From Acidobacteriota bacterium (GTDB lineage: Bacteria > Acidobacteriota > Terriglobia > Acidiferrales > UBA7541): a DNA stretch of 64,000 bases. Location: the NCBI GenBank assembly GCA_003224085.1, contig QHYK01000040.1, positions 62,001 to 126,000 of the forward strand. Direction: 5' to 3'. Each line of letters starts with the position of its first letter. Position 1 is the stretch's first letter. The notes beneath the pieces were generated by a model. It was not told the origin of the DNA, made no database searches, and worked only from the letters and a program-made list of their open reading frames with translations. Both the position numbers and the translations under genes were made by a program. Positions 25,089 through 36,509 of the stretch are shown one piece after another.

Positions 25089-25136
25089 ATTCAAGAATTC
25101 AAGAATTCAAGAATTCAAGAATTCAAGAATTCAAGA
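25089..25136 (+). repeat. Six tandem copies of an 8-bp repeat (ATTCAAGA)
   Basis: Six exact head-to-tail copies of ATTCAAGA occupy 25089-25136 and end 16 bases before the stop of the methyltransferase-like gene on the other strand. Each junction makes an EcoRI-type GAATTC. Such perfect short arrays arise by slippage and may vary in copy number between strains. Confidence 0.9.
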
Positions 25137-34025: not shown

Positions 34026-35825
34026 TCAATTCGGCAGGTCGCCCGCCCGAATGAGAATGGACCCATCCAGTTCTGTGTCACCGGCAAGATATCTACGCCG
34101 CACCTCTTGCTCGATGGGCTGGCGGTTCGCTCGGAAAACTTCGAGTCTGTCTTTGCCATCTCCATGAAAGTGATTGTCCAGAGCTTCCCCGGTGATAAGG
34201 CACCGCACCACCGCTTCGCCATCTTGCCCGTAGAAAAGGACCATGTCTCGCCCGAGAACCAAACTCTCCATGGGCGCGGGAAATGTCACGTCGTGGCGCT
34301 CCAGGCGCCATTCCACGCGGCGGACGAGGAAGGTTGTGAACGGATGGATGTCCATCTCGATGCTGGCGCGGTCCAGCGCGTTCAGATAAGCCTTGCGATC
34401 CACAACGCGAATCACGGTCCAAGGAAAGCCGCCCGAAGCCAGCATGACATTCATCAGAAAGCGCGCCATGCGGCCGTTCCCGTCGGGGTACGGGTGAACA
34501 TAACCGAAAAGCCAGTGTCCCAACACTGCGCGCACCGAAGGCTCGGGCTCCTTCTCCAGAACGTCGAAGAACTCAGGCATGGCATCCCGCACCGCCTCCC
34601 ACCGCGGCGGAACGTAGCGCGACCCGCGCAGAAACACGGGTACGTTCCTGTATCCGGCCAATGCTCCCGGTTCCAGCAAGCCGGCGGAAACACAGGGCTG
34701 GAACAGTTCGCGATACCAGTCGTTGTGCGCAGCGCGCGCAAGCGTGGCCGGGTTCTCACCGGCGATCACTTTCTCTACTTCTTTTTTCACGCGCTGAAAT
34801 GCTTGCCAGTATCCCCGCGCCGCTAGGGCGTCGCGATTTCTGCGATCACCGGGGTCATTCTGCGGGTCCCAACCGCCCTGCCGCACTCTCTCAACCAGGG
34901 CGGGCGTGACGGAGTAGCCTTCGATGGACAACGAGTGGTAGGCGTCGGTGCGATAAATTTCGTCGACGAAGCGAAGATACGCTTCCTTGTCTGTCGGAAG
35001 TCCCGGCGCTTTCGGGAACGCCGCCAGGACCTTTCCGCGCATCGATTCCCAAAGCATCTCGACGCGGCTCACGATTGGAGCAGTGGGACGGCTCGGCTTG
35101 TGGAATATCTGTCCGGCTTCAAAGGGACTGCTCTCTCGCACATCGTATCCGGCGCCCTTCATCGCGCGGAGAATCTCCTCCGCGAGTTCGCCGCGTCCGG
35201 TTTGGCGGAAGGCTTTGGCGAGATAACCGGCTTTCGCGGAATGCCCCCCGTTCAGGAGAAGCCGAAGCAGGTCGGAGGCGTCACCGAGGCTTGCCATCAC
35301 GACTTGCGCCTCAAGAGGATACATCTGAAAAAATGATTCCGGCACGCGTACCAACGCCGCCGCGGGCGTAAACAGGCGCAATCCCTCCCTCACCGTGAGA
35401 ACCCCGGGCTGGGGCATCTCCGCAACTTTCAGGTCGTAAAGGGTTGTGCCGAACAGAAGCTGGATATCGTTGTTCGTTGCTTTCGGACTGTGCACAACCA
35501 GTTGATCCGGGATCACCGTTCTCTCGCCATGCAAGAAGAGCGATTGCTCGGGCGACAGATGCCATTGATCGCCAAAGCGCTCATCGCAGTAGCGCGCGCA
35601 GAATTCCCAGAACGAGGCATGCCAAGGCGTGCTCTCGCCAGCCTGTGCGTCAGGGCTTGAAGAAATCAGCCAGCCCTTCATGACTTCTTGCAGGAAGCCG
35701 TTCTCTACCAGGCGCTCGCGATGGACTCGGCTCAGGTCCTCGGAACGGAACACCCGCCGGTTGCCCTGCTGAAGCGCCTTGAGTTCGTCCAGGGATTCAG
35801 CCAGTTTTTCGTTTGGCGTAGGCAT
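34026..35825 (-). CDS. Fic-domain protein (class II, self-inhibited) with N-terminal DNA-binding-like domain
   Basis: A 599-residue protein. The Fic active site HPYPDGNGR is at 444-452, with catalytic His444 and the phosphate-binding GNGR loop. The inhibitory-helix motif S298-LSIE-G303 fits (S/T)xxxE(G/N), with Glu302 blocking ATP as in class II Fic enzymes. Fic proteins transfer AMP (AMPylation) or related groups to Ser/Thr/Tyr of target proteins. Residues 20-60 (RRVFRSEDLSRVHRERLVEN, then GFLQEVMKGWLI) resemble the winged-helix of AbiEi-type antitoxins, followed by about 200 residues of unassigned domain. A strong AGGAGG ribosome site precedes ATG 35825. Its promoter lies inside a 24-bp repeat array (35864-36007), so autoregulation by the N-terminal domain is plausible. 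Confidence 0.9.
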   Translation of the reverse strand: MPTPNEKLAESLDELKALQQGNRRVFRSEDLSRVHRERLVENGFLQEVMKGWLISSSPDAQAGESTPWHASFWEFCARYCDERFGDQWHLSPEQSLFLHGERTVIPDQLVVHSPKATNNDIQLLFGTTLYDLKVAEMPQPGVLTVREGLRLFTPAAALVRVPESFFQMYPLEAQVVMASLGDASDLLRLLLNGGHSAKAGYLAKAFRQTGRGELAEEILRAMKGAGYDVRESSPFEAGQIFHKPSRPTAPIVSRVEMLWESMRGKVLAAFPKAPGLPTDKEAYLRFVDEIYRTDAYHSLSIEGYSVTPALVERVRQGGWDPQNDPGDRRNRDALAARGYWQAFQRVKKEVEKVIAGENPATLARAAHNDWYRELFQPCVSAGLLEPGALAGYRNVPVFLRGSRYVPPRWEAVRDAMPEFFDVLEKEPEPSVRAVLGHWLFGYVHPYPDGNGRMARFLMNVMLASGGFPWTVIRVVDRKAYLNALDRASIEMDIHPFTTFLVRRVEWRLERHDVTFPAPMESLVLGRDMVLFYGQDGEAVVRCLITGEALDNHFHGDGKDRLEVFRANRQPIEQEVRRRYLAGDTELDGSILIRAGDLPN

Positions 35826-35863
35826 GGCGCCTCCTATCCCGGAGCAGAGGATTACAAATTTAT

Positions 35864-36007
35864 TTACAAATCTATTCTGGTGAGGAAATACAAGTATATG
35901 ATGCTGTTCGGATACAAGTCAATAGTGCTGTGTAAATACAAGTATATTGTGGCGCATTTATACAAGTAAATTGTGCCGCATAAACGCAAGTATATAATGC
36001 AGGTACA
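35864..36007. promoter_or_regulatory. Array of six phased 24-bp repeats containing the fic promoter
   Basis: Six units of exactly 24 bases begin at 35864, 35888, 35912, 35936, 35960 and 35984. Units 2-5 each start ATACAAGT, unit 6 ACGCAAGT, and the most diverged unit 1 TTACAAAT. The next eight bases are mostly near ATATTGTG (units 2-6), and the last eight vary. The core ATAC-AA-GTAT is itself palindromic. On the minus strand, TTGACT (35917-35922) and TATACT (35893-35898) with an 18-base spacer make a good promoter for fic inside the array. No spacers of CRISPR type are present. Confidence 0.85.
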
Positions 36008-36509
36008 TGCTAAAGTATTTTTTTTCTATCAGTTGGTGGCGACGATTCCGGGCTTCATGCAAACCGATTATTCGAGATGGCACTCTGGGGTTCAGTGAGT
36101 TGGGCGTCTTCTTTTCTAATCTCTCCCGCGACTCAACCCTTGCCTCTACAAAAATTGGCCATTGTGTAAAAACTGACTCGGGTCGCACCACTCTTATTCC
36201 TGCCTCTTTAGTTCCAGCTGTTTTTTTTACAATCTGTCGAGCCAAGGCGACTTCAAGAACCATGGAGCGGTGTTGTGCGGAGGGACTCGAAATGGCGCGG
36301 AGCGCCAATGCCATGTCGCGGGCGTCCTCCAAGGATCCAGAAGTTGGCAGGAGGCCGGGATTGTAGGCGCTTACAAAGTGTTGAGTTTTTTTTGGTGCCG
36401 GGGGTGCCAGGGATCCCGCGAGGAGCGCCTTTCGGGCTTTTCAGAAGGCCTGGATCTGCAAGCCCTTGCAAAGCGGAAGGTCCCGCTTCGCTCCGCCAGG
36501 AGAAATTCC
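36008..36509. other. Low-GC spacer without supported gene
   Basis: Between the repeat array and the lacI-type promoter. GC is visibly lower than average in 36008-36260 and runs of T occur (eight-base run near 36220 and again near 36390). A 124-codon minus-strand frame (35958-36332) overlaps the array and has no recognisable family; I do not call it. The patch looks foreign or eroded. Confidence 0.5.

Follow-up and report, generated by a model that had tools for sequence, protein, structure and literature searches.

A phased 24-bp repeat array as the predicted private operator of a fic gene encoding a predicted AbiEi-like N-terminal module

We observe an array of six phased 24-bp direct repeats across the predicted promoter of a fic gene in the window (the whole 64,000-nucleotide stretch of acidobacteriotal DNA analyzed here). 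In our best reading the array serves this gene as a private operator, with the fic product as its putative repressor. From a phased array lying across the promoter, with a spacing that is kept in relatives, we conclude that the enzyme very probably represses its own gene by coating the array, and we consider with good confidence that it would do so with one protomer per unit, through its predicted AbiEi-like N-terminus.

Over positions 35864-36007, identity at lag 24 is 0.65. At this lag the window averages 0.278 (sd 0.046) and elsewhere reaches 0.458 at most, and 5000 first-order Markov shuffles gave no more than 0.48 across lags 10-48, which bears out the grid of 35864 + 24n proposed in the preliminary description. 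The same 24-bp family was recovered by a general repeat search and by TRF alike. Five units are clear and the sixth (35864) is diverged, with an offset 12-bp half copy at 35852, and all are direct repeats, arranged head-to-tail on one strand. In the family register, which reads CA..AT..ACTTGtA on the gene strand, the array spans 35999-35856 (Table 1), and the AT-rich block just beyond it is partly common to ten aligned group 2-type copies. A palindrome within the unit, ATACAAGTAT, had been put forward as the recognition core; it is complete in two of the six window units and in just 14 of 142 CTTG-type family units, and the idea was rejected. Elsewhere in the window, six perfect copies of an 8-bp unit (ATTCAAGA) lie at 25089-25136 between two minus-strand reading frames, a run that could be a slippage site.

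With respect to the promoter, the scan returned two promoter-like sites (0.5 expected), the stronger one matching exactly the claimed minus-strand arrangement of TTGACT, an 18-bp spacer and TATACT, a predicted sigma-70-like promoter, and the weaker one lying 48 bp further up. Since 24 bp is the sum of 6 and 18, the grid itself fixes the promoter spacing. The in-array promoter recurs in relatives, namely in ACTTG-type loci, where 18/27 loci have TTGACT in the third unit from the gene and 0/28 have it in the last unit, and TATACT occupies the second unit in 16/28, the fourth in 11/27 and the last in 5/28 (L009 and L017, with a decayed last unit, are scored one unit off in these counts). The -35 and -10 hexamers favor fixed units in these loci.

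Table 1. Features of the fic locus in the window, with the array units numbered from its upper end
Feature	Position	Strand	Basis
Six 24-bp direct repeat units, family register	35856..35999	-	Repeat searches, lag identity, family alignment
Units 1-3	35999-35976, 35975-35952, 35951-35928	-	Family register
Units 4-6 (last diverged)	35927-35904, 35903-35880, 35879-35856	-	Family register
AT-rich block just beyond array (AACTAATTGA...CTTAGC in relatives)	36009..36037	-	Alignment A5
-35-like hexamer TTGACT, third unit from gene	35917..35922	-	Promoter scan
-10-like hexamer TATACT, second unit from gene	35893..35898	-	Promoter scan; spacer 18 bp
fic gene, 599 aa (P0001)	34026..35825	-	Open reading frame, domain search
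Predicted winged helix, residues 1-60	35646..35825	-	AlphaFold model, PDB matches
Nucleotidyltransferase-like domain as in AbiEi antitoxins (predicted), residues 61-240	35106..35645	-	AlphaFold model, PDB matches
Class II inhibitory-helix motif S298-L-S-I-E302-G303	34917..34934	-	Invariant in 19 sequences of alignment A2
Fic domain with HPYPDGNGR	34440..34709	-	Pfam PF02661, E 7.8e-13
C-terminal DUF1488 extension	34053..34289	-	PF07369, E 1.5e-12

By its sequence, the C-terminal half of the protein is a class II Fic enzyme for which AMPylation is predicted. The motif HP[FYLIM]x[DEN]GNGR is found in 65 of 67 full-length homologs, the remaining two carrying the variants HAFPDGNGR and HPHVDGNGR, and the inhibitory motif (S/T)xxxE(G/N) is likewise found in 65 of 67, L063 and L079 having ER for EG. 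Both group 2 rows of alignment A2 have the DUF1488 extension, which the remaining 17 rows lack. A 58% identical stretch lies in another open frame, of 792 aa, in the same genome (L004, G000:C34:2242-2496), and the C-terminal tails of L010 and L020 are longer still than this extension.

For the N-terminal 240 residues, structure prediction gives a fold resembling that of AbiEi-type antitoxins. AlphaFold gave a low-quality model of the full chain (pLDDT 63), and a model of residues 1-240 was used instead (pLDDT 91.8), in which a helix (4-18), a strand (25-27), a second helix (33-41) and two wing strands (45-49 and 52-55) are seen, with helix 33-41 as the likely recognition helix of the modeled fold. 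The best solved match in Foldseek is AbiEi 6y8q (E 2.1e-4, probability 1.00), a loose one with a TM of 0.38-0.45 and an rmsd of 9.3. VIA returned Rv2827c 1zel (Z 10.3 over 220 residues, rmsd 5.1) and AbiEi 6y8q (Z 8.9 over 177 residues, rmsd 5.1), with the next rows at 7.4 or below, and also matched the second N-terminal domain to nucleotidyltransferases. At the sequence level, residues 1-247 gave no significant family in Pfam, NCBIfam, PADLOC or PDB, other matches falling later in the chain. The weak matches here were to NCBIfam (E 0.17 and 0.24), to alphaREP in PDB (E 0.17 and 0.84) and, in a Pfam search with 16 members, to DUF7620 in one member (E 0.13) and to DUF3419 in one (E 0.3). The BFVD structure search gave nothing with E below 0.001.

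The related-locus search from the window gene gave 20 loci. The N-terminal 285 residues were matched in 15 of 297 Acidobacteriota genomes (own genome included), in 14/398 genomes from the phylum to which the gammaproteobacterial L025 genome, G298, belongs (itself included), and in 4 of 198 genomes of the phylum of Phytoactinopolyspora L021, G297 (itself included), three of these four matches being remote. Furthermore, they were matched in 77 plasmid records and 3 viral contigs; phage records gave one match, in the Fic region only. Homologs are spread over Acidobacteriota, Pseudomonadota and Actinomycetota and also occur on plasmids (one in Bacteroides), with identity down to about 30%. The plasmid regions examined were 17 of 60 among the matches listed. 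On the Aminobacter plasmid pSR7 (L064), a second gene, of a different Fic family, lies directly upstream of the array-bearing one.

A period test over periods 15-40 covered 70 upstream stretches, the window copy included and L096 dropped (67 nt upstream); for remote homologs the start codons were set by script, and in L066 the aligned position holds no standard start codon. The best period was 24 in 63 stretches, 23 in 6 and 33 in 1, with z of at least 6 in 44/70 and at least 5 in 63/70. By comparison, none of 136 control stretches elsewhere in the same loci reached a z of 6 (maximum 5.71; period 23/24 in 10), and among 145 other gene starts one reached 6 (period 15) and seven reached 5, with period 23/24 in 25; period 24 is favored in coding DNA because it is a multiple of three. 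The array is absent from L063 by this test. At L007, a roughly 23-bp phased TTCCGGGATGATGCCGATC repeat breaks the array about 60-150 bp upstream of the fic ATG and leaves one 24-bp unit; this repeat may be one end of a mobile element that has inserted there. Since the period of 23 at L007 comes from a foreign repeat, the family array is counted in 68 of 70 upstream regions and not in 69. Two of the 68 are weak (the score of L039 is equalled by 15/60 shuffles and that of L103 by 5/60), and at L010, L020, L026, L074, L076 and L079 it is equalled by 1 or 2 of 60. The preliminary description had named the lack of a grid at homologous fic loci as its refutation and had regarded such an array as unusual for a Fic gene; the grid is kept, and the array is rather the rule in the Fic subfamily of the window gene.

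Among 69 loci, the number of scored units is 1 in 5 loci, 2 in 10, 3 in 17, 4 in 20, 5 in 12, 6 in 4 and 7 in 1. In alignable copies the array length varies by 24 or 48 bp, i.e., by whole units, and in the group 2 arrays of L011, L014, L017 and L018 a spacing of 48 bp gives a better match than one of 24 bp. L021 and L026 each have an extra two-unit cluster farther upstream; it lies 138 bp from the main array in L021, off the grid, and 95 bp from it in L026, nearly on the grid, and looping is possible. Gains and losses of 24 or 48 bp are also what functionless tandem-repeat slippage would give, an explanation that we find hardly credible, given that one period is held across highly diverged sequences and phyla and that the promoter has a preferred placement.

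On the gene strand the family unit reads CA..AT..aCTtg.a......C, and its core is variable: among 57 in-register loci we count ACTTG in 28, GCTTG in 6, GCTAA in 4, CCTAA in 3, GCGAA in 3 and others in 1-2 each. Units of Rhizobium and Sinorhizobium carry TAGTG, and those of Vibrio are a 23-bp CGTAACTAAGAGTAA unit. The covariation, Mantel and region tests left out 12 of the 69 phased loci, namely L007 and 11 of unsafe register (L072, L075, L077-L080, L101-L105), an exclusion that removes the most diverged units. In the remaining 57 loci, core similarity follows protein identity (rho 0.70), and the partial Mantel correlation with phylum held is 0.697 when two viral contigs are treated as a phylum of their own, 0.694 without these contigs and 0.528 when each 80% cluster contributes a single locus (38 representatives, all below 80% identity), with 0/2000 permutations as high in each case. 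Being of the same phylum added nothing to core similarity in the three Mantel runs (-0.12, -0.14 and 0.00). Among the 38 representatives, a core 4-mer is shared by 67/125 cross-phylum and 64/113 same-phylum pairs at 55-80% protein identity, and by 8/263 and 10/202 pairs, respectively, at 30-55%. As far as can be read from these sequences, the unit follows the Fic protein and not the host phylum, as expected of co-inheritance with a protein that reads its own units and not of a host regulator.

Protein-following letters do not by themselves name the reading domain. The winged helix is not enriched in protein-unit mutual information (25 of the top 200 pairs versus 23.9 expected), a signal that is dominated by deep phylogeny. 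Identity in residues 1-60 tracks the core at 0.58, in residues 61-240 at 0.69 and in the Fic part (286-500) at 0.67; once the Fic part is controlled for, 0.14 remains for residues 1-60 and 0.33 for residues 61-240 (56/1596 pairs were lost from these correlations to truncated proteins). The earlier suggestion that the protein's own N-terminal winged helix binds the array is therefore sustained in part: the predicted AbiEi-like fold and the protein-following units speak for it, and the covariation, which is not localized there, speaks against it. The same lack of localization would suit a separate, host-encoded regulator that binds the array while the Fic N-terminus serves otherwise, for example by neutralizing the Fic domain in the manner of an antitoxin, and an antitoxin role is indeed among those of the AbiEi fold (PMC7319586). 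We consider such a regulator quite unlikely, as across phyla the unit letters go with the Fic protein rather than with the host, no further array of the window unit type was found at another gene of the draft own genome, and plasmids of many hosts carry the gene together with its array.

In the draft own genome, a two-unit pattern (at most 2 mismatches) gives nine matches, five at the window gene, three on contig C102 and one on contig C86, and the reversed-pattern control gives none. This unit type is found at no other gene of the draft genome, the pattern being blind to arrays with other cores. The C102 matches belong to a decayed second fic copy (L003, G000:C102:77536-78459) that has kept four mixed GCTTG/ACTTG units; its residues 1-54 are unmatched and the remainder is split over different frames. 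The C86 match is an orphan two-unit array that fits the pattern perfectly (L049, G000:C86:12280-12316, minus strand); no fic match was found on that contig, and the array is probably the relic of a lost cassette. When the window copy is set against group 2-type copies (13 comparisons), the stretch common to both stops 14-209 bp upstream of the ATG on one side and near the gene end on the other, which indicates that array and gene travel together.

Plasmid iterons are phased direct repeats too, and the preliminary description had named them as the other look-alike. Homologs are common on plasmids (77 records), and the plasmid copy L066 lies near repAB, as an iteron or a partition site might. 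We nevertheless regard such a role as very improbable, and the look-alike is unsupported: the window fic lies between genes for a TonB-type receptor and for a LacI regulator, with replication genes on neither flank, array-bearing homologs also occur in long genome-assembly contigs (e.g., L021, 775 kb), and the units follow the Fic protein. Apart from the own-genome pattern matches, all loci were found through fic, so the tie of the array to fic is partly by construction. No AbiEii toxin gene was recognized beside the window fic, and no gene is so named in 16 of the 17 plasmid regions (those annotated), hypothetical proteins there aside.

In the preferred reading, that of autorepression by the fic product, the N-terminal module of one protomer would read one 24-bp unit and neighboring protomers would sit side by side, perhaps with the filament-like cooperativity that the preliminary description suggests, so that units filled over the -35, the -10 and the start region would shut out RNA polymerase. 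Expression of the predicted AMPylating enzyme, already restrained by its inhibitory helix, would be held low and would rise only upon loss, dilution (e.g., on entry into a new cell) or removal of the protein, and gene and array would form a self-contained cassette. At 10.5 bp per turn, 24 bp is about 2.29 turns, which means that neighboring protomers would be rotated by about 103 degrees; by this arithmetic a protein coat would wind round the DNA and not line one face of it.

A further reading, which adds to autorepression and does not compete with it, is that the array is an assembly platform on which stacked Fic protomers form a helical polymer with AMPylation off (or on), occupancy controlling both activity and transcription. 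The strict 24-bp phase despite changing letters, the variation of arrays by whole units and the retention of the class II inhibitory motif are in line with it, whereas the existence of two-unit arrays and the position of the second clusters in L021 and L026 are not, and the reading depends on putative contacts between protomers; we judge it unlikely. The boldest form of the proposal, a mobile one-gene toxin-antitoxin-like cassette in which an AbiEi antitoxin-AMPylator fusion forms a helical polymer on its array, with occupancy setting repression and activity and with a drifting operator code that leaves the cassettes blind to one another, may be entertained and is doubtful.

If the array is an operator, a widespread Fic subfamily gains a visible and testable control element. 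Furthermore, nearly 70 natural protein-operator pairs of fixed geometry and drifting letters make a set for AbiEi-type DNA recognition, and the same pairs are useful for finding mutually blind repressor-operator pairs.

Among known systems, SoFic and FICD are class II Fic proteins that have in common with the window protein, by sequence, the Fic core and the SxxxE(G/N) motif; to our knowledge, neither has an AbiEi-like part or a 24-bp operator array. BldC is, unlike the window protein, a MerR-like developmental regulator that is not known to have an enzyme domain. It forms cooperative multimers on direct repeats, according to the available part of PMC5859096, and direct repeats are the feature that it has in common with the window array. 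CccR is a Fic protein that also has a DNA-binding domain and acts as repressor of its own gene (PMC9755527): both it and, by prediction, the window protein combine a class II Fic enzyme and an autorepressor in a single chain. In CccR the HTH is C-terminal and the site is a dimeric palindrome, AGATAATCAT-N26-ATGATAATCT (PMC9755527), whereas the window protein has a predicted N-terminal, AbiEi-like DNA-binding module and a phased direct-repeat array.

The accessible passages of PMC11514479 treat AbiEi and SoFic as separate systems and give no fusion of the two, and among the matches listed from the open-licence PMC literature we found no published description of an AbiEi-like module fused to Fic, or of the array. 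The parts are already known, 23-bp repeats being the sites of AbiEi-type autorepression and CccR being an autorepressing Fic protein; apparently new, as not found in print, is the combination of an AbiEi-like module and a class II Fic in one chain, with direct-repeat arrays that are conserved over phyla.

The nearest relatives of the predicted N-terminal fold are AbiEi of the AbiE system (Streptococcus agalactiae, 6Y8Q) and Rv2827c (1ZEL), which, like the modeled window protein, have a winged helix and a second domain. Both are autorepressors on 23-bp promoter repeats, AbiEi binding two inverted repeats 3 bp apart and Rv2827c binding four repeats, and neither bound the other's site (PMC7319586). 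These operators, as described there, and the window array are alike in that units of about 23 bp and of 24 (23) bp, respectively, lie over the own (in the window, predicted) promoter; they differ in that AbiEi uses inverted repeats and the window array has direct repeats at a gapless 24 (23)-bp pitch. Unlike in AbiE, no AbiEii gene is recognized adjacent to the window fic; the predicted AbiEi-like part is fused to Fic, and two toxin worlds, AbiE and Fic, would be joined within one chain.
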